From assembly GCA_947630045.1 (NCBI GenBank), contig CANRGC010000013.1:1-53652 (forward strand): DNA of 53,652 bases, in the 5' to 3' direction. Origin of the DNA: Candidatus Gastranaerophilales bacterium (GTDB taxonomy: Bacteria; Cyanobacteriota; Vampirovibrionia; Gastranaerophilales; Gastranaerophilaceae). The first letter of the stretch is position 1. The number at the start of each line of letters is the position of its first letter. Below, piece after piece: positions 2,560 to 17,255 of this stretch. The notes under the pieces are model-generated. The model worked only from the letters and a program-made list of their open reading frames with translations. It searched no databases and was not told the origin of the DNA. Made by a program: the position numbers and the translations under genes.

Positions 2560-2587
2560 TTTAAACGGGGGAGTATGTCTTTAAAAT

Positions 2588-3817
2588 ATGCTAGACAAAC
2601 ATAAACTTTACCTTAACTATTCATATGACTGGTTCACGTCAAATATTCAAAAAAGTATCAAAGAGAGCACCTCAATCTTTTTTGAAGACAATTTTGACAT
2701 GTTTTTGTGTGCCATAACTGAAAACAATAACCCGAAAGACCACCCTCTTGTTAAAAACGAACTTTTTTATACTTGCAGAATTTCTATTAAAAATAAACAA
2801 AATGTTATATTAAGAATAACCTCAGATTTCATAAGAATTATTTTTCATGACCTTTTCGGGTCAAATTATCCGGTGTTTGACCTTGAAAAACTCACGGAAC
2901 TTGAACAGCAAATTTTAAATTCATATTTTGAATATTTGGTAAAAAAACTCAGTGCATTCTTAATTTCCGATGAAAATCCGAATAAAATAAACCCGCTGAA
3001 CAAACTGGAAGCAACTTTAATTTTTAATATCAAACACAAAGAAATGAACACGGGAAAACTTCTTATAACGCTTCCTCTAAACAGGTGTGATATTAAATTT
3101 TTAAAAACCGTTGATAACTTTTCTGCAGATTCTTTTTTGAAAAATTCGGTTTTCGTTGACATATTAACGGGATATGCAAAAATTTCATTGGAAGACCTGA
3201 AAAATCTGAGTAGAGATGACATTATCCTTCTTGAAAAAAGTAATATTAAGAAAATGACTTTAAAAGTTGCAAATTCCGAATTTAATTTTGAAGTCAACCC
3301 TGACCCTTCTTTAATAATTGACTTGGAAGATGATGTTGAAATTGAAGATGTAAAAGATGATGAATATAAGGAAGAAATTATGCCCGAAAATAAAATGATG
3401 TGGGATGACATTCAAATTGAGGTCAGCGCCGAATTTCAAAAAGTTAAAATGTGTTTAGGCGATTTAAAACAAATTACAAAAGGGGTTGTGATTGATGTCG
3501 GAACTATTACAGACAATGAAATCTCTCTTTTTGTTGAGGATAAAATCGTTGCTAAAGGTGAACTTGTCATTATAAATGATAAATATGGGGTAAAGATTAC
3601 GGAAGTGTATGCGGATAAAAAAGAAAATATACAAAAGCCGCAAATTCCGCCTCAAAAGTCTGCTCCGGCACAAAGAGCGCCTCAGCCTGCGGCAAAACAA
3701 CAAACGCCGCCTCAAAAGTCTGCTCCGGCACAAAGAGCGCCTCAGCCCGCCGCAAAGCCTCAGGCGCAGGCAAATAACGTAAAAGAAGATTTTGATTATT
3801 CAAACTTTGAGGAATAA
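2588..3817 (+). CDS. Protein with two SpoA domains (FliM/FliN- or SctQ-like), first gene of the export-gate operon
   Basis: A 409-residue protein. Residues about 275-345 match the FliN-type SpoA domain well, ending AKGELVIINDKYGVKITEV. Residues about 190-250 (VDILTGYAKISLEDLKNLS) look like a second, more diverged SpoA domain. FliN-type SpoA domains build the cytoplasmic C-ring of flagella. Two SpoA domains in one chain is the plan of the injectisome protein SctQ rather than of FliM or FliN alone. The N-terminal 180 residues are not recognised. The C-terminus is a Pro/Ala/Gln-rich linker made by a 60-bp tandem repeat, then an acidic end (EDFDYSNFEE). The purine-rich ribosome binding site lies about 14 nt before the ATG, longer than usual. 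It is followed after 3 nt by fliO. Confidence 0.7.
   Translation: MLDKHKLYLNYSYDWFTSNIQKSIKESTSIFFEDNFDMFLCAITENNNPKDHPLVKNELFYTCRISIKNKQNVILRITSDFIRIIFHDLFGSNYPVFDLEKLTELEQQILNSYFEYLVKKLSAFLISDENPNKINPLNKLEATLIFNIKHKEMNTGKLLITLPLNRCDIKFLKTVDNFSADSFLKNSVFVDILTGYAKISLEDLKNLSRDDIILLEKSNIKKMTLKVANSEFNFEVNPDPSLIIDLEDDVEIEDVKDDEYKEEIMPENKMMWDDIQIEVSAEFQKVKMCLGDLKQITKGVVIDVGTITDNEISLFVEDKIVAKGELVIINDKYGVKITEVYADKKENIQKPQIPPQKSAPAQRAPQPAAKQQTPPQKSAPAQRAPQPAAKPQAQANNVKEDFDYSNFEE
3647..3766 (+). repeat. 60-bp tandem repeat, two copies, inside the SpoA gene
   Basis: Units 3647-3706 and 3707-3766 are nearly identical and in frame. Each encodes 20 residues beginning PPQKSAPAQRAPQPAAK. The third base varies in a few codons. 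Repeat number may differ between strains. Confidence 0.9.
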
Positions 3818-3820
3818 AAA

Positions 3821-4234
3821 TTGATTCATTATATAGCAAGTTTCATAGTTTATACTTTTGCAATGGTCGGAATTTTAATCATTGCCTACGTTGTATACAA
3901 AAAAACGGTTTTATTAAACCCGCACAAAAAAAATTCACTTTTGCAAATAGTTGATATGTTAAGGCTTCCCGACAGAAAACTTTTATATGTCATTAAATGT
4001 AAAGATGAAAATTTTTTAATAGCGTCTTCCAATGATAAAGTCACTTTAATTTCAAAGTTAAACGAAAATAAAATCGAAACACCGCAAGTATATCAAAATA
4101 AGCCGGTTTTTGATTTGAATGAAGAAGAAATCAATCTTCATTTAAATGAGGAAAAACAAGAAAATAAACAGGTTATAAGAAGTCTTTTAAAAGAGCTTTC
4201 GGATAAAAATCAGGCAAAAAGAGGGAATTATTAA
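3821..4234 (+). CDS. fliO: FliO-like export apparatus protein
   Basis: A 137-residue protein with one N-terminal membrane helix (residues about 4-27) and a cytoplasmic domain with the FliO pattern (short beta-rich stretch LPDRKLLYVIKCKDENFLIASSNDKVTLISKL). FliO helps assemble the FliP ring of the flagellar export gate and has no injectisome counterpart, so its presence argues for a flagellar origin of this operon. The start is TTG at 3821, preceded by GAGGAA. It overlaps fliP by one base (TAATG). Confidence 0.75.
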   Translation: MIHYIASFIVYTFAMVGILIIAYVVYKKTVLLNPHKKNSLLQIVDMLRLPDRKLLYVIKCKDENFLIASSNDKVTLISKLNENKIETPQVYQNKPVFDLNEEEINLHLNEEKQENKQVIRSLLKELSDKNQAKRGNY

Positions 4235-4875
4235 TGGATGTATTATTAAAAGATTTAAATCCCGTGTTACAGCTATTGTTAACAATGGCGCTTTTTTCGC
4301 TTCTGCCTTTTGTATTTGTCTGCATGACAAGTTTCTTGAGGTTTGTCATTGTTTTTTCAATGTTAAAAACCGCAATGGGAACAAACTCGGTTCCGCCCGC
4401 TATGGTTCTTGTCGGACTTTGTATTATTATGACATTTTACACAATGTCGCCTGTCTTTCAACAAATGTATGAGGCGGGCTCCGTTCCTTATAATCAAAAC
4501 GGAAATATAGTTCTGGCGGTTCAAAAGGGTTCTGAGCCTTTGAAAGAATTTATGTTAAAACAAACAAGACAGGAAGATTTGGTCTTTTTTATCGAAAAAA
4601 CAAGAAAAGTACAGCCTAAAAGCCCTGATGAACTTACCCTTTGGGAAGTTGCGCCCGCATATATTCTCTCAGAGCTTAGAACCGCTTTTGAAATAGGCTT
4701 TATAATTTATGTTCCTTTCACGGTGTTGGATCTGGTCGTTGCCAACATTTTGCTTGCTTTAGGTATGTTTATGTTGTCGCCCACAATTGTGTCTTTGCCT
4801 TTTAAACTGCTTATTTTCGTTGCGGTTGACGGGTGGAGCCTTATTGTTAAAGGCTTAGTGGAGAGCTTTAACTGA
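4234..4875 (+). CDS. fliP: Flagellar export gate protein FliP
   Basis: A 213-residue membrane protein of the FliP/SctR family, which forms the export gate pore with FliQ and FliR. Family-specific stretches are clear: TSFLRFVIVFSMLKTAMGT, PPAMVLVGLCIIMTFYTMSPV, the soluble segment PLKEFMLKQTRQEDL, and the C-terminal SELRTAFEIGF ... LALGMFMLSPT. The wording of these motifs is closer to FliP than to SctR, yet the chain lacks the cleavable signal peptide many FliP proteins carry and is of SctR length. Its start and stop overlap those of fliO and fliQ by one base each, indicating translational coupling. Confidence 0.92.
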   Translation: MDVLLKDLNPVLQLLLTMALFSLLPFVFVCMTSFLRFVIVFSMLKTAMGTNSVPPAMVLVGLCIIMTFYTMSPVFQQMYEAGSVPYNQNGNIVLAVQKGSEPLKEFMLKQTRQEDLVFFIEKTRKVQPKSPDELTLWEVAPAYILSELRTAFEIGFIIYVPFTVLDLVVANILLALGMFMLSPTIVSLPFKLLIFVAVDGWSLIVKGLVESFN

Positions 4876-5366
4876 TGGAATTTTTAATCGAATATATGGC
4901 AAGAGGCTTTTTTGTAATGTTAACAATTTCAATGCCCTGTGTTCTTGTTGCGGCGGGCATTGGTCTTGTTGTCGGTATTCTGCAAGCCGTAACACAGGTT
5001 CAGGAACAAACAATTGCCGCCGCTCCCAAAATTGTAGGGGTGTTTTTAACCATTGTGGCGCTCGGGGTTGTTTACGTTAAAATTTTAACCGAATATATCA
5101 ACGAAGGGGCATATGTTGCCTTTAATATTGTTCCAAAATCGGAAAACTACGTTCTTCCCGCCGATTATTATTATCACACAAGACCTTTTGCAAATGAAAT
5201 GAAAGATACAATTTCGCCAAATTCAGGCAAAACAAAAGAAATTATGCAAAACCCCGGAAAAATTCCTTGGGTAGACAGAGCCGACAAATCAAAATATACA
5301 CCGGCATTTCAAGGCGCAAATCCAAGACCTAACCTGATTGAAACGAATAAAATCTTAGGAAGATAA
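4875..5366 (+). CDS. fliQ: Flagellar export gate protein FliQ with a long C-terminal extension
   Basis: Residues 1-85 are FliQ: two membrane helices around the conserved segment GILQAVTQVQEQTIAAAPKI. FliQ packs around the FliPR core of the export gate. The family usually ends near 90 residues; this protein continues to 163 with a polar tail rich in Pro, Tyr, Lys and Asn (for example PNSGKTKEIMQNPGKIPWVD) and no further membrane helix. The tail is in the same frame with no sign of a frameshift. The start codon overlaps the fliP stop (TGATG). Confidence 0.9.
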   Translation: MEFLIEYMARGFFVMLTISMPCVLVAAGIGLVVGILQAVTQVQEQTIAAAPKIVGVFLTIVALGVVYVKILTEYINEGAYVAFNIVPKSENYVLPADYYYHTRPFANEMKDTISPNSGKTKEIMQNPGKIPWVDRADKSKYTPAFQGANPRPNLIETNKILGR

Positions 5367-5368
5367 TT

Positions 5369-5821
5369 TTGAAAAAAAGTTTAATAACAATTTTATTAAT
5401 TTTAATCGCAACATCTTGTGTATACGCCAAAAAACCGCAAGAAAAAAAGGTTTTGCCGAATGATGTTTTAGCCCCCGCAGTTCAGTTTAATCTTGAAGAT
5501 TATAAAGACTATTTCAAAAAATCTACAGACTATAAACTCGAGGTTTCTTCCCGTGCTAATTATAAAATTACATGCGAAAATGAAATCATAGGCGTTGAAT
5601 GGGGAGATTATGACAATGTCAAAATGCTTGATTATAAAAACAAAAATAAAAATGATTTAAAAAGCGTTATTATGAAGCTTAAATATGAAACTTATACTTA
5701 TATAAGGCTATATCAATCAACCGGCGAAATATTAAATGTTATGTTAAACGTTAATGCCGGTTTTGAAAAAGATAAGACAACAAATTTGGGCTTGTGTAAA
5801 GTTGAGCCTTTTGGAGATTAA
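5369..5821 (+). CDS. Unknown small exported protein between fliQ and fliR
   Basis: A 150-residue protein not recognised as any family. The N-terminus is a signal peptide (MKKSLITILLILIATS...), with a possible signal peptidase I cut after VYA; a Cys at residue 17 makes a lipoprotein possible but the lipobox is poor. The mature part begins with a Lys-rich stretch and contains two cysteines that could form a disulfide in the periplasm. The start is TTG at 5369, two bases after fliQ, and the stop is directly followed by the fliR ATG, so it is an integral member of the operon. A periplasmic partner of the export gate or basal body is an inference from position only. Confidence 0.7.
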   Translation: MKKSLITILLILIATSCVYAKKPQEKKVLPNDVLAPAVQFNLEDYKDYFKKSTDYKLEVSSRANYKITCENEIIGVEWGDYDNVKMLDYKNKNKNDLKSVIMKLKYETYTYIRLYQSTGEILNVMLNVNAGFEKDKTTNLGLCKVEPFGD

Positions 5822-6607
5822 ATGGAAGCAAACTTATTCACAATGGAATTTGCAAAACTTTTTCCCGAGATAAACTTGGCAATCGGCACGGGAATAATGA
5901 TTTTTGCTCGTTTAGCGGGGGTTATGAGATATGCTCCTCCGTTTAACAGAAGTGAAATGCCCACAATGATAAAAGTTTGCCTTGCGCTTATTTTAACCGT
6001 GACTCTTACTATGGTTATCAAACCCGCACCAATTCCGGATAACACTTCTTTGCTTTTTTGCATGCTTCTGAATTTTTCTTTCGGGTTTATAATCGGCTAT
6101 ATCGTAAATTGTATAATAGCCGCAATAACCTCGGCGGGCGATATTATAAACAGCCAAATCGGGGTGTCATCCGCAATGATTTTAGACCCTACGACGGGAA
6201 CTCAAAACTCTTTAATGGGGAATTATTTTACCCTTCTTTCAATTTTAATTTTTATACATATCGGCGGATGTTATTGGATAATAAACGCTTTTATAAGAAG
6301 TTTTGATGTATTCCCGATATATGCGACAAGTTTTCCTTTAATTCAAGTTATTAATATGGACTATCTTGTTAAAATTACCTCAAACACTTTTATTGTGGGA
6401 ATGCAGATTGCCGCCCCCATTTTGCTTGCAACACTGGGGCAAGATATAATTCTCGGTACAATTTCAAAAACAGCCCCTCAAGTTAACGTCTTTCAAATGA
6501 GCTTCCTTTTTAAACCGGTTATGGGTGCGTTAATTTTAACTTGGGTTATGCCAAGCCTTGTGAATGTTATAGGCGACTATCTTTCTTCGTTTGGAAATAT
6601 TTTTTAA
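5822..6607 (+). CDS. fliR: Flagellar export gate protein FliR
   Basis: A 261-residue protein with about six membrane helices, matching FliR, the single-copy subunit that completes the FliPQR gate. Recognisable stretches are FARLAGVMRYAPPFNRSEMPTMIK near the N-terminus, GDIINSQIGVSSAMILDPTTGTQ in the middle, and FQMSFLFKPVMGALILTW near the end. Its length is normal for FliR, with no FlhB fusion. FlhB and FlhA, the other membrane parts of the export apparatus, are not in this window. A terminator follows immediately. Confidence 0.92.
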   Translation: MEANLFTMEFAKLFPEINLAIGTGIMIFARLAGVMRYAPPFNRSEMPTMIKVCLALILTVTLTMVIKPAPIPDNTSLLFCMLLNFSFGFIIGYIVNCIIAAITSAGDIINSQIGVSSAMILDPTTGTQNSLMGNYFTLLSILIFIHIGGCYWIINAFIRSFDVFPIYATSFPLIQVINMDYLVKITSNTFIVGMQIAAPILLATLGQDIILGTISKTAPQVNVFQMSFLFKPVMGALILTWVMPSLVNVIGDYLSSFGNIF

Positions 6608-6650: not shown

Positions 6651-7850
6651 TTAATTCATTGGCAATTTAATTTCAAAAGAAGTTTCATCGTCGTTTGATT
6701 TTAACAGAACAATTGTTCCCCTGAACTGTTCTATATAGTTTTTACAAACAAAGAGCCCTATTCCATGACCTTTGTTTTTTGTTGTAAACCCTTTATCAAA
6801 AATCTTTTTTTGGATATTTTCTTCTATTTTGGCGCCGTGGTTTGAAATTTTTATCTTGCAAAATTTGCCTTCCGTTGATAAATCAATTTCAATAACATCA
6901 TTTCTACAAGCTTCATTTGCATTTTTAACTATGTTGTTTATAACCGACAAAAGCTTGTTTTCATCAACAAAACAGTGAATGTCATATCCGACACAGTTAA
7001 ATTTTATTGAATTGTTATTTTCTTTTAAAACCTCATCAAATAAATGAATTGAATCATCAATAACGTCTTGAATTAAAACCTCTTTGATTTCCATATTTTC
7101 ATAGTTTTTCAAGTTATTTAACTCAAGAGAGATTAAATTTAAAGACTTTTTTATTACATCAATGTTTTTGTTTTGCCCGAATTGTTTTTCGATTAGTCTT
7201 GTATATACATCCAAAATTGAAAGCTGATTTTTAATTTCATGAGAAGATTCTTTTATTTTTTCATTAACATTAACATCGTCAGTCAAATCTATAACAAAAG
7301 AGTCGTTTTCTTTATAATTGTTTTCTTCAATTTGTGTGTTTAATTTTCTTAAAACGCTTGATAAAGCTTCGTTTAAAAGTTCATTCTCACGTCTTTCAGG
7401 CTTATGAAGATAAAATTTTTCTCTATAGTCTGTATTCAAGTTTGATTGCAAGATTTCATAAACGTCATTTACTTTTCTTGAATTTACAAGGAAATAAAAT
7501 TTTGTATAATTTTTTTCCGTGTCGTTTGAATAATCAAATATGAGAGCAAAATTATATCTGGGCGAAGTGAATATGATAAATTCAAGCTCAATGTAATCGT
7601 CCTTAATTAAAACATTCGGCACGGTTGTGTCAACCATTTCAACATTTGTGCAATATTCAAGGCGCTTAATAAGCCCCTCTAAACCCTCTTTATTTTTAAG
7701 TCTTGTAAAAATAAGAGAATTTGTGTTTTGGTTTATAACAGGCTCTAACATTGACCTTATGATTGTGACAACGGAATTTCTTGAAAAGAGTTCCGAACTG
7801 CCGCTTTCATATTCCAAAAACGTTTTTAATTGTTTTTGTTTTTTAAACAT
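6651..7850 (-). CDS. Soluble sensor histidine kinase
   Basis: A 399-residue protein with no membrane helix. The phosphoacceptor is His204 in SSHEIKNQLS, followed by a helical dimerisation region and a HATPase_c domain with the N box NNIVKNANEA (305-314), an F box FDKGFTTK and the G2 box GHGIGLF (361-367). In the G1 box the usual Asp is replaced by Asn (ISNHGAKI), which could weaken nucleotide binding. Residues 1-190 contain no recognised sensor domain and probably sense a cytoplasmic signal. It lies 30 nt downstream of a response regulator gene on the same strand and is presumably its partner. Confidence 0.88.
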   Translation of the reverse strand: MFKKQKQLKTFLEYESGSSELFSRNSVVTIIRSMLEPVINQNTNSLIFTRLKNKEGLEGLIKRLEYCTNVEMVDTTVPNVLIKDDYIELEFIIFTSPRYNFALIFDYSNDTEKNYTKFYFLVNSRKVNDVYEILQSNLNTDYREKFYLHKPERRENELLNEALSSVLRKLNTQIEENNYKENDSFVIDLTDDVNVNEKIKESSHEIKNQLSILDVYTRLIEKQFGQNKNIDVIKKSLNLISLELNNLKNYENMEIKEVLIQDVIDDSIHLFDEVLKENNNSIKFNCVGYDIHCFVDENKLLSVINNIVKNANEACRNDVIEIDLSTEGKFCKIKISNHGAKIEENIQKKIFDKGFTTKNKGHGIGLFVCKNYIEQFRGTIVLLKSNDDETSFEIKLPMN

Positions 7851-7880
7851 AAAATTTACCGACGCTTAAAAATTGTAAAC

Positions 7881-8591
7881 TTAAACCGCAATTTTCAATT
7901 TTTGTTTGTTTAAGAAGCCTTTATTTATTGCATATAAGACCGCTTGGGTTCTGTCATTAACCTGTAATTTTTGGAAAATATTGTTAACATGAGTTTTAAC
8001 GGTTGTTTCCGAAATAAAGAGTTTTTGAGCAACCCCTTTATATGTAACCCCTTGAGTTAAAAGGGATAATACTTCTTCTTCCCTGTTTGTAAGTTCGTTT
8101 AACAAGTTATTTTCGTCTTCTTCAATTTTGCTCTGTTGATTTTTCTCAAAGTTTTGGAAGTAATCAAAAAATCTTGTGCATAAAATGTTTGGAAGATAAA
8201 TTTTGCCTTGAGAAACTTCATCAAGAGCATGAATTAATTGATGAGAAGCCATGGTTTTTAAAATGTAACCTTTAGCCCCAAGTTTCATTGCTCTGAAAAT
8301 TAAATCAGGATCGTCGTATGCTGTTAAAACAATTATTTTAGTTTCGAGGTGAAGTTCTGTGATTTTCATAATTGCCGTAATGCCGTCAACATCAGGCATG
8401 TTCATATCCATTAAAACGATATCGGGTTGATATTTTTTAATTAACGAAATTGCAACATTTGCATTTCCCGCATTTGCTATAACTTCATAGTCGTTTTCAA
8501 GGTTAATTAATTCCCTTATTCCCGAAGCATGGTCATAATTGTCATCAACTACGATAACTCTCGTTTTTCTTTGAAAATCAAGTCTTCTCAT
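7881..8591 (-). CDS. NarL/LuxR-type response regulator
   Basis: A 236-residue two-domain regulator. The receiver domain has the acidic pocket DD (16-17), phosphoacceptor Asp62 in LMDMNMPDVDG and Lys112 in GAKGYILK. A Glu/Asn-rich linker leads to a GerE/LuxR-type DNA-binding domain (about 165-226, LTNREEEVLSLLTQG ... ISETTVKTHVNNIF). The strong ribosome binding site GGAGGA lies before the ATG at 8591. It is cotranscribed with the histidine kinase gene. Target genes are unknown; the nearby export-gate operon is a candidate only by position. Confidence 0.93.
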   Translation of the reverse strand: MRRLDFQRKTRVIVVDDNYDHASGIRELINLENDYEVIANAGNANVAISLIKKYQPDIVLMDMNMPDVDGITAIMKITELHLETKIIVLTAYDDPDLIFRAMKLGAKGYILKTMASHQLIHALDEVSQGKIYLPNILCTRFFDYFQNFEKNQQSKIEEDENNLLNELTNREEEVLSLLTQGVTYKGVAQKLFISETTVKTHVNNIFQKLQVNDRTQAVLYAINKGFLNKQKLKIAV

Positions 8592-14717: not shown

Positions 14718-15894
14718 AAATCTCACGTCCTCTGTATCTTGCTATTGAAGCAACATCCTTATCTCCACGTCCTGACAGACAAACAATAATGATATCTTCT
14801 TTTTTCATTTGACCGGCAAGCTTTATTGCCTCGCTTACGGCATGAGCGCTTTCAATTGCGCAAATTATGCCTTCCGTTTTGGCAAGATATTCAAAAGCCA
14901 AGACCGCTTCTTCGTCTGTAACGGGAACATATTTTGCACGTCCGGTTTTGTGCAAATAGGCATGTTCAGGGCCTATCCCCGGATAATCAAGCCCCGCCGA
15001 AATTGAATAAACGGGAGCAATTTGACCAAATTTATCCTGACAGAAAATCGATTTCATTCCATGAAAAATTCCGACACTTCCTTTTGCTATGCTTGCGGCG
15101 TGTTTTTCCGTTTCAATTCCAAGACCTGCCGCTTCTGCGCCGATTAATTGAACATTTTTGTCGGAAATAAAATTATAAAACATTCCCATAGCGTTTGAAC
15201 CGCCGCCAACACAAGCGATAACTGCGTTTGGAAGCTTTCCTTCAACTTTCAAAATTTCTTCTCTTGCTTCTTTTGAAATTATGCTTTGAAAATCTCTTAC
15301 AATCATAGGATAAGGGTGCGGACCCATTACAGAACCCAAAACATATAAAGTATCATCCACTCTTTTTGTCCACTCTCTCATTGCCTCTGAAACAGCGTCT
15401 TTCAGGGTTCCCGTTCCGGTTTTAACGGAATTAACTTTTGCGCCTAAAAGATTCATTCTGTATACATTTAGCGCCTGACGTTTAATGTCTTCTTCACCCA
15501 TAAAAATTTCACACTCGAGGTTTAATAAAGCCGCCGCAGTTGCTGTTGCAACTCCATGCTGACCGGCTCCGGTTTCGGCTATAATTCTTTTTTTGCCCAT
15601 ATATTTTGCAAGAAGCGCCTGCCCCAGAACGTTATTGATTTTATGAGAACCCGTGTGATTTAAATCTTCACGTTTAAGATAGATTTTTGCCCCGTTTAAA
15701 TCTTTTGTCATATTTTTTGCAAAATAAAGCAAGGAAGGGCGACCTGCGTATGTTTTTAATAGGAAATCCAACTCTTGATTGAATTTTTCGTCATTTTTGT
15801 AAAAATTATAAGACCTTTCAAGATTTATGATTTCTCTCATCAGGGTTTCAGGCACGTACTGTCCGCCAAATTCCCCATATTTTCCATTATTCAT
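14710..15894 (-). CDS. trpB: Tryptophan synthase beta chain
   Basis: A 394-residue PLP enzyme condensing indole and serine to tryptophan. The cofactor lysine is Lys85 in HTGSHKINN. Other conserved parts are the N-terminal [31 protein letters not shown] and the glycine loop [12 protein letters not shown]. This is the common TrpB1 form that pairs with TrpA, not the longer TrpB2. It lies one base after trpF and overlaps trpA by 8 nt. Confidence 0.97.
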
Positions 15895-15895
15895 T

Positions 15896-16486
15896 TTAAA
15901 TTCCTCTTACAATTTTTATTATATTAGAAACTTTTTCTTTTGTCTTAAAACCGTTAAATTCCGCTCCGGACGAGACGTCTGCCCCGAAGGGTTTAAGTTT
16001 TTTTGCCATTTGTTCTATATTATTTTCATTCAGACCGCCCGCAACAAAATACGGCACATTCGTTTTAATTTTTATATCCCAATCAAAAGTTTGATTTAAC
16101 CCGCCCGCTTGATTTGGCGAAAAAGCGTCAAATAAAAGAAAATCAGCCTCTGTTTCAATTTCGTATTCGACATTTTGAACTCTTACGGTTTTTATAACTT
16201 TCAGACCGTTTTCTTTTAAAAATTTAACCGAATTTTCCGAATAATCTCCATGAAGCTGTGCAAAATCAATAATATCTTTATATTTTAAAATTTCTTCCGT
16301 TTTTTTATCCACAAAAACGCCCACGGTTTCAATTTTCGGGTTTAAAAGCTCTTTTATTTTTTTCGCTTCTTCAAAGCTGATTTCCCTTTTGCTTTTTGCA
16401 AAAATAAAACCGATAAAATCGGGCATTTCTTCGTTCATTATTTCAGCTTCAATTTGGTTTTTTATTCCGCAAATTTTAATCTTCAT
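15896..16486 (-). CDS. trpF: Phosphoribosylanthranilate isomerase
   Basis: A 196-residue TIM barrel converting N-(5-phosphoribosyl)anthranilate to the carboxyphenylamino deoxyribulose phosphate. The N-terminus [10 protein letters not shown] includes the catalytic Cys6; further conserved parts are [22 protein letters not shown] and the phosphate sites [10 protein letters not shown] and GADVSSGAE. It overlaps trpC by 11 nt and is followed one base later by trpB. Confidence 0.95.
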
Positions 16487-17255
16487 TTAATTGCCCTCTC
16501 AATTTTAAAACTTCTCTGGGCTTGTTTTCGGTTTTCATAAATGTTTCGCCGATTAAAACAGCGTTAACCCCCGCATTTTCAAGAGTTTCAATATCTTTTC
16601 TTGTTTTAATTCCCGATTCGGAAATAAAAATAATTTCATCCGGCACAAATTTTCTTAAATTGAGAGAATTTTTAAAATCAACTTCAAAAGTTTTTAAATT
16701 GCGGTTGTTGACCCCTATTATTTTAGCGCCTGAGTTAACCGCTCTTTTTACTTCTTTTTCATCATGCGCTTCGACAATGGCTGATAAGCCGAGACTGTGA
16801 GCAATTTCAAGGAATTTCTTTAATTTTTCATCGTTTAAAATGGCGCAGATTAAAAGAATGCAGTCGGCTCCGATTATTTTTGATTCATAAATTTGAGCTT
16901 CTTCAATAATGAAATCTTTCCTTAAAATAGGCTTTAAGCTTTCATTTTTGACTTTTTTTATAAAAGAATTATCCCCCATAAAAAAGAAAGGTTCCGTTAA
17001 AACCGAAATGCAATCTACATCTGCGATTTTATATTCGTGTGCAATTTTTACGGGGTCAAAATCTTTACAAATCAAACCCTTTGAGGGTGAAGCCTTTTTA
17101 ATTTCCGCAATAATTTTTATATTTTTTCCTTTTAGTGCGTGAAAAAAAGGAAAATCTTCGGCACAAAGGGCTTTTGCCTCTTTTTTTAAAGTTTCAAGGT
17201 CTAAAACCTTTGTTCTTTCATAAGTTTTTTCAACAATTTTATCTAATATATTCAT
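16476..17255 (-). CDS. trpC: Indole-3-glycerol phosphate synthase
   Basis: A 259-residue TIM barrel that closes the indole ring. Recognisable stretches are IIAEIKKASPSKGLI (with the catalytic lysine), ISVLTEPFFFMG, ILRKDFIIEEAQIYES, IIGVNNRNLKTFEVD and FISESGIKT, the usual order for TrpC. It is a free-standing enzyme and not fused to TrpF. Its start overlaps the end of trpD by 17 nt. Confidence 0.96.
   Translation of the reverse strand: MNILDKIVEKTYERTKVLDLETLKKEAKALCAEDFPFFHALKGKNIKIIAEIKKASPSKGLICKDFDPVKIAHEYKIADVDCISVLTEPFFFMGDNSFIKKVKNESLKPILRKDFIIEEAQIYESKIIGADCILLICAILNDEKLKKFLEIAHSLGLSAIVEAHDEKEVKRAVNSGAKIIGVNNRNLKTFEVDFKNSLNLRKFVPDEIIFISESGIKTRKDIETLENAGVNAVLIGETFMKTENKPREVLKLRGQLNED

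Follow-up and report, generated by a model that had tools for sequence, protein, structure and literature searches.

An operon for a type III export gate occupies positions 2588-6607 of a 53,652-nucleotide stretch of DNA from Candidatus Gastranaerophilales (the window), which is contig C13 (CANRGC010000013.1) of a 1.70-Mb assembly that is 99.77% complete. It consists of six co-directional open reading frames (ORFs), with only a few bases of gap or overlap between neighbours, encoding a C-ring-like protein with two SpoA domains (SctQL), FliO, FliP, FliQ, a 150-residue protein (P150) and FliR (Table 1). The initial annotation had described this operon as a mixture of flagellar and injectisome-like traits, and the presence of FliO next to a two-SpoA protein agrees with that description. 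It had also placed FlhA, FlhB and the filament outside the window, correctly: FlhA, FlhB, FliF, rod and flagellin genes are all absent from the window, and all but flagellin were found on other contigs of the assembly, FlhA on C9 and C2 and FlhB on C3. No match to Flagellin_N was obtained anywhere in the assembly.

Two export machines in the Gastranaerophilales

The wider distribution was assessed in 117 genomes of the order, a sample from a larger group, of which 43 carry flagellin and 74 do not. FliP counts per genome were tallied by hand. At least two FliPs, an ordinary one and one of the window type, are present in 39 of the 43 flagellin-bearing genomes, and exactly one is present in 73 of the 74 flagellin-less genomes (the remaining one, G063, has none). 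FlhA splits in the same way, into canonical proteins scoring ∼858-891 bits and window-type proteins scoring ∼690-736 bits. In the flagellated genomes inspected the canonical FliP, FliQ, FliR, FlhB and FlhA genes form one run (7/7 loci) and the window-type operon lies elsewhere. The order SctQL-FliO-FliP-FliQ was found in all 12 relatives inspected, followed by FliR in 11, the twelfth being stopped by the end of its contig. SctQL was found in 92/92 loci examined, although 80 of these had been retrieved with SctQL itself.

A search of the assembly for the rest of the machine gave export and rod genes on contigs C9, C3 and C6, including a rod set of FliE, FlgB, FlgC and two FlgF/G-like proteins. 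In relatives these genes form a cluster of 12, in the order FliK-like, two FlgF/G-like, FlgB, FlgC, transglycosylase, FliE, FliF, FliG-like, FliH, window-type FlhA and FliI; the FliK-like ORF is named by position only and has no family match. Of the 20 loci examined, seven hold the cluster without interruption; they span four families and all lie in flagellin-bearing genomes, and in one of them two ORFs make up FliI. Three more loci are nearly contiguous, from FlgF/G-like to FlhA. Through its window-type FlhA, the contiguous cluster ties the rod genes to the window-type export gate. FlgE and FlgK were sought with PF00460 at E <= 0.001, which returned just FlgB and FlgC in the window's own genome; this model also missed the two FlgF/G-like genes there, so a divergent hook gene may still be present. 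In flagellated relatives PF00460 does pick out long ORFs of about the length of FlgE or FlgK.

To map the loss of flagellin, a window-type FlhA tree was built for 74 of the 117 genomes (18 from earlier loci and 56 fetched; one internal stop in the G020 sequence was set to X). The flagellin label changes six times on this tree, all six changes being forced by well-supported branches, compared with a mean of 25 for shuffled labels. The window's own genome is placed with flagellated species and therefore lost flagellin independently of the large flagellin-less group. Counting absence in draft assemblies as loss, flagellin has been lost at least six times, including in this genome, with the machine retained. 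Genera g18 and g33 each contain both flagellin-bearing and flagellin-less genomes, and in G016 (87% complete) flagellin is missing along with the second FliP and any further SpoA protein. The window genes are under purifying selection, with median ratios of nonsynonymous to synonymous substitution (dN/dS) in close pairs of 0.117 for SctQL, 0.157 for FliO, 0.073 for FliP, 0.102 for FliQ and 0.074 for FliR. Since nearly all sampled members keep the machine after losing real flagella, it probably performs a function in its own right.

The existence of a distinct, conserved export machine that builds a rod is well supported: its parts are present and linked, they are separate from the flagellum, the window genes are under purifying selection and the machine persists through repeated flagellum loss. 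We estimate a probability of about 0.78 that the Gastranaerophilales typically carry a second type III export machine distinct from the flagellum, that the operon encodes its gate and C-ring-like subunit, and that this machine builds a rod, no filament and probably no hook, the rod being a probable conduit. Judging from the genes, secretion is its likely function, and of the two roles offered by the initial annotation, the secretion system without a filament is the most likely.

Several observations weigh against this conclusion. FliH, FliE and the FliG-like protein are all divergent, and the FliG identity is weak: among 18 homologues FliG_M was matched by 4 (best 2.8e-4) and MgtE_N by 9, while hhalign against two FliGs and a profile search of the PDB gave nothing for this protein. 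In the flagellated relatives the second FlhB was not found. Four of the 43 flagellin-bearing genomes (G095, G009, G024 and G028, three of them 83-92% complete) have a single FliP. Finally, a hook-like FlgE/F/G-family protein of 277-278 residues occurs in several relatives (at L040, L046, L050, L051, L100:1112-1945 and L107:4408-5241). Flagellated relatives have its gene downstream of the cluster, and flagellin-less ones carry it also. PF00460 at the above threshold, which missed the FlgF/G-like genes too, gave no such gene in the window's own genome. This protein may be a further rod part or a short hook part.

From the gene content we infer the following assembly path, in which P150 and the FliK-like protein are also assigned tentative roles. 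The FliPQR gate, assembled with the help of FliO, would be seated with FlhA and FlhB in the FliF ring, the FliG-like protein and SctQL would make up a C-ring or sorting platform, and delivery and unfolding of substrates would fall to FliH and FliI. Once exported through the gate, FliE, FlgB, FlgC and the FlgF/G-like proteins would assemble into a short rod, crossing the peptidoglycan where the transglycosylase has opened it, with the FliK-like protein possibly setting rod length and P150 possibly acting as a periplasmic or outer-membrane collar. With no filament and probably no hook beyond it, the rod would itself form the end of the structure and would probably act as a conduit for substrates.

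Proteins of the operon

The claim that the first protein carries two SpoA domains is confirmed both by FliMN_C, which matches it in two stretches, and by a predicted structure. The model was built on an alignment of 56 sequences, using 55 relatives out of 78 suitable ORFs found (a separate alignment held 13 sequences), and has a predicted local distance difference test score (pLDDT) of 77. Residues ∼4-174 match the FliM middle domain/CheC fold (Z ∼12) and residues 186-344 match a FliM(SPOA)::FliN fusion (Z 9.4, root mean square deviation 4.6, 128 aligned). Confidence is low at 248-265 and over most of 345-402, and the relative placing of the domains is unsure because the predicted template modelling score is only 0.48. 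Since the N-terminal half is predicted to fold like the FliM middle domain, SctQL is better described as FliM-middle + SpoA + SpoA than as a simple SctQ; the absence of SctQ itself from the fold matches of that half proves nothing. SctQL has no room for the N-terminal peptide by which FliM binds CheY. Its C-terminus (window 3785-3817) follows a variable low-complexity tail and carries a near-invariant acidic-aromatic sequence, EDFDYS-x-F (residues 400-407), that looks like a docking peptide.

A FliMN_C protein is present, at least one per genome, in 117/117 genomes. The window's own genome has a single FliMN_C-bearing ORF, and neither separate FliM and FliN nor a full flagellar set. In flagellated relatives the two-SpoA protein co-occurs with separate FliM and FliN, so it did not arise by fusion of the two during flagellum loss. 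Among the best 80 of at least 290 SctQL relatives, most are titled Candidatus Gastranaerophilales or uncultured bacterium, with a few other titles (one 'Clostridiaceae'). Upstream of SctQL, inspection by eye of window 2567-2601 placed the strongest Shine-Dalgarno-like run, GGGGGAG, at 2567-2573; the ATG that follows, at 2574, begins an ORF of 9 codons which runs over the SctQL start at 2588.

The initial annotation had also noted that FliP lacks a signal peptide. The alignment to the family model begins at residue 18, which would leave little room for a cleaved leader, and to this extent the remark holds. It does not mark an injectisome, because the flagellar FliP of Bacillus velezensis is likewise short (221 residues).

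FliQ and P150 are the more unusual members of the operon. Ordinary FliQs encoded in the same order of bacteria have 87-103 residues, whereas the consensus of the ∼80-residue tail of the window FliQ is conserved over 88 homologues. P150 is variable in sequence among homologues; PF13629 (T2SS-T3SS_pil_N) was matched by 9 of 38 aligned P150 ORFs (best 3.7e-5; one of the 38 rows is a wrong ORF with a 23S_IVP match), and the window P150 itself has no match to this family. The P150 model has a pLDDT of 86.7 and a best Foldseek E of 1.9e-3. Ranks 1-7 of the structure comparison (VIA) are type IV secretion core complexes, with Z of 7.1-8.2, a range that according to the tool's own warning is common. 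The structures closest to the model are VirB9/TraK-type domains from outer-membrane complexes of type IV secretion, and on these moderate fold matches P150 may resemble the N-terminal domain of VirB9/TraK. It is probably exported.

Table 1. Genes of the window operon, and genes assigned to the same machine on other contigs of the assembly
Product	Location	Strand	Remarks
SctQL, 409 aa, FliM-middle + SpoA1 + SpoA2, C-ring/sorting-platform subunit	2588..3817	+	Pfam FliMN_C 2.5e-20 in two stretches
FliO-like, export-gate assembly protein	3821..4234	+	Pfam PF04347 1.4e-7; 92/92 loci
FliP, window type, 213 aa, without N-terminal extension	4234..4875	+	Pfam 8.7e-68; NCBIfam fliP 228 bits, above cut-off 217.45; second FliP in flagellated relatives
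FliQ, 163 aa, conserved C-terminal extension of ∼80 residues	4875..5366	+	Pfam Bac_export_3 4.2e-19
P150, 150 aa, putative exported beta-domain protein between fliQ and fliR	5369..5821	+	no Pfam family of its own
FliR, window type	5822..6607	+	Pfam Bac_export_1 3.8e-51; NCBIfam fliR 153.5 bits, below cut-off 168.6
FliE, FliF, FliG-like, FliH, FlhA, transglycosylase	contig C9		transglycosylase within the fliE-fliF run
FlhB and adjoining FliA/WhiG-like sigma factor	contig C3		
FlgB, FlgC, two FlgF/G-like, FliK-like ORF	contig C3		
FliI	contig C6		

The sigma factor has FliA_WhiG as its best model (79.4 bits against a cut-off of 189.6). Its gene adjoins flhB in the window's own genome and the SctQL operon in G016 (L071:8784-9392 and L015:8759-9436, both on the minus strand), and by its position the protein is possibly dedicated to the second machine. 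A common sigma-28 promoter ahead of the gene groups was sought and none was found beyond chance. The C2 copy of FlhA (G000, L005:11542-12993, minus strand) is a 483-residue protein without the FlhA membrane part, consisting of a weak DUF4177 match, a middle stretch and the FlhA cytoplasmic domain (FHIPEP 9.7e-47). FHIPEP counts suggest extra FlhA-like copies across the order, with up to nine matches in G097. Several ORFs with type IV pilin-like N-termini were seen by eye at L005:7480-8268 and 14728-16592. Downstream of the operon and running towards it, window 6651-8591 (minus strand) encodes a histidine kinase and a LuxR-type response regulator; no association of this pair with the machine was seen at other loci.

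Relation to flagella and injectisomes

The machine shares with the flagellum the rod proteins, FliE, FliF, FliH, FliI, FlhA and FlhB, FliOPQR, the FliM-middle fold and a FliA/WhiG-type sigma factor by flhB. It differs in that no flagellin was found, in that no FlgE or FlgK passes PF00460 in the window's own genome, in the replacement of FliM and FliN by one FliM-middle-SpoA-SpoA protein, in the FliQ tail and in the insertion of P150 between fliQ and fliR. Against the flagellar equivalog models of NCBIfam (score/cut-off in bits), FlhA (691.7/772.1), FlhB (343.9/349.25), FliF (115.1/129.75), FliI (558.4/629.8), FliR (153.5/168.6), FliQ (58.5/88.9), FliO (34.9/55.25), FlgC (99/102.1) and FlgB (54.5/59.05) all fall below the cut-off, and FliP is the only protein to reach it among the models compared. 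The canonical FlhA, FliP, FliR and FlhB of a flagellated relative (G012) all pass. Injectisome cut-offs are also missed, for the models SctV (594.1/692.25), SctN (536.9/604.75), SctT (110.8/163.05), SctR (202.3/208.6) and SctQ (49/100.8); a general SctR-subfamily model is passed by the FliP of this genome (219.4 against 179) and by the canonical FliP of G012.

Other known systems resemble the machine in part. Dual flagella also place two flagellar export gates in one genome, and the lateral and polar systems both end in hook and filament. Buchnera aphidicola reportedly kept its single flagellar system, whereas here a second system coexists with the canonical export gate and flagellins in relatives. 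The excerpted record describes Buchnera basal bodies that lack a filament and likewise keep basal body and export machinery (PMC8109811). The hat-like inner-membrane structures are export-gate related and extend beyond the flagellum, but they are tied to the ordinary flagellar gate, and a rod or a separate gene set is not described in the excerpted text (Kaplan 2022, PMC9380563).

A non-secretory or rotary device, in which a motor turns an envelope rod, for example for surface movement, would account for the retention of FliG-like and FliM-middle-like parts and for the conserved LKsWIE segment at the C-terminus of FliF, which we take to resemble a FliG-binding tail. Since FliG_C is at best weakly matched among the FliG-like homologues (2/18, 0.039), we consider such a device improbable.

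The published view, an incomplete flagellar gene set left by genome reduction in gut species, is very unlikely. It fits the lack of flagellin and the restriction of rod/hook model matches to FlgB and FlgC in this genome, and the excerpts of Di Rienzi 2013 (PMC3787301) take MEL.A1 as reduction in progress. However, the same genes lie beside complete canonical gates in flagellated relatives, their dN/dS is 0.07-0.16 and they were kept through at least six flagellin losses. The reduced flagellum suggested by the initial annotation, or a decaying one, is contradicted by this coexistence, selection and repeated retention.

Also very unlikely is membership of the known non-flagellar type III secretion system (NF-T3SS, injectisome) families: although the export gate, the ATPase, a two-SpoA platform protein and the lack of flagellin are shared with injectisomes, including the secretin-less Myxococcales type, the window FliQ scores alike with SctS and FliQ models (58.7 and 58.5 bits) and trees put the machine on the injectisome side of flagella, it has FliE, FlgB, FlgC and FliO, its FliF carries the C-terminal part found in flagellar FliF, and its FlhA, FlhB, FliF, FliI and FliR score higher with flagellar than with injectisome models. 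According to Abby and Rocha (2012, PMC3459982), the absence of FlgB, FlgC and FliE is a defining feature of NF-T3SS, and the Myxococcales type lacks these and a FliG-like protein, all of which the second machine keeps; in relatives its rod genes form one run with the window-type flhA.

In concatenated FliP+FliR+FlhA trees the window-type and canonical sets are separate clades (100/100 each). Canonical Gastranaerophilales flagella group with other flagella, and the window type falls on the injectisome side with support of 96/98 and 98/97 for two outgroup sets. The four injectisome rows, among which there is no Myxococcales-type row, form a clade of their own that excludes the window type (100/100). 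A single clade of window-type and canonical sets was not rejected in three approximately unbiased tests (p-AU 0.12, 0.085 and 0.243) and rejected with the better outgroup set (p-AU 0.023). That set differs from the one giving 0.085 by the removal of the long branches NF_Paraburkholderia, OG_Roseivivax and OG_Pseudarthrobacter and the addition of Bacillus, Acetoanaerobium, Undibacterium and B. guangdongense; the injectisome-free test (0.243) was run with neither Undibacterium nor any NF row. Placement relative to NF-T3SS thus depends on the outgroup, and long-branch attraction is likely because the window-type stem is long.

With respect to origin only, descent as a fast-changed duplicate of the ancestral Gastranaerophilales flagellum, instead of as a deep branch, has somewhat less than an even chance. 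The three tests that do not reject the joint clade and the long stem speak for a duplicate, and the rejection with the better outgroup set speaks against it. More tentatively still, the machine might represent a third deep-branching lineage among type III export machines, surviving from a stage intermediate between flagellum and injectisome. It would have dropped hook, filament and separate FliM and FliN, would still build a rod as a secretion conduit and would use a VirB9-like periplasmic collar of its own instead of a secretin, with flagella coming and going while the machine stays constant. A place between flagellum and injectisome is possible.

Published record and significance

Excerpts of earlier work treat these genes as flagellar: Di Rienzi 2013 (PMC3787301) describes Melainabacteria as flagellated and MEL.A1 as reduced, Soo 2014 (PMC4040986) describes most Gastranaerophilales genomes as carrying a subset insufficient for a flagellum, and a 2018 paper (PMC5877343) restates this. 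The 13 shared 'flagellar' genes of the Di Rienzi supertree read, in locus-number order, flgG, flgG, -, flgC, -, -, fliF, -, fliH, flhA, fliI; fliP, fliQ, -, fliR. Because this order and spacing match the second machine, not the flagellum (loci L097, L099-L102, L107 and L114), the supertree was likely built largely from second-machine genes. In open-access full text, the coverage of our search (subscription papers lie outside it), we found no paper that separates the two machines or reports a second export machine in the order.

If the second machine is as we propose, a common gut and water order carries a type III export machine that has so far been read as an incomplete flagellum, and motility predictions for Gastranaerophilales genomes would change. 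The order also offers a natural experiment, with at least six flagellum losses in which the second machine was retained. The finding would bear on the origin of injectisomes as well, since the accepted account of their rise by exaptation could plausibly include a machine with a rod and no filament.

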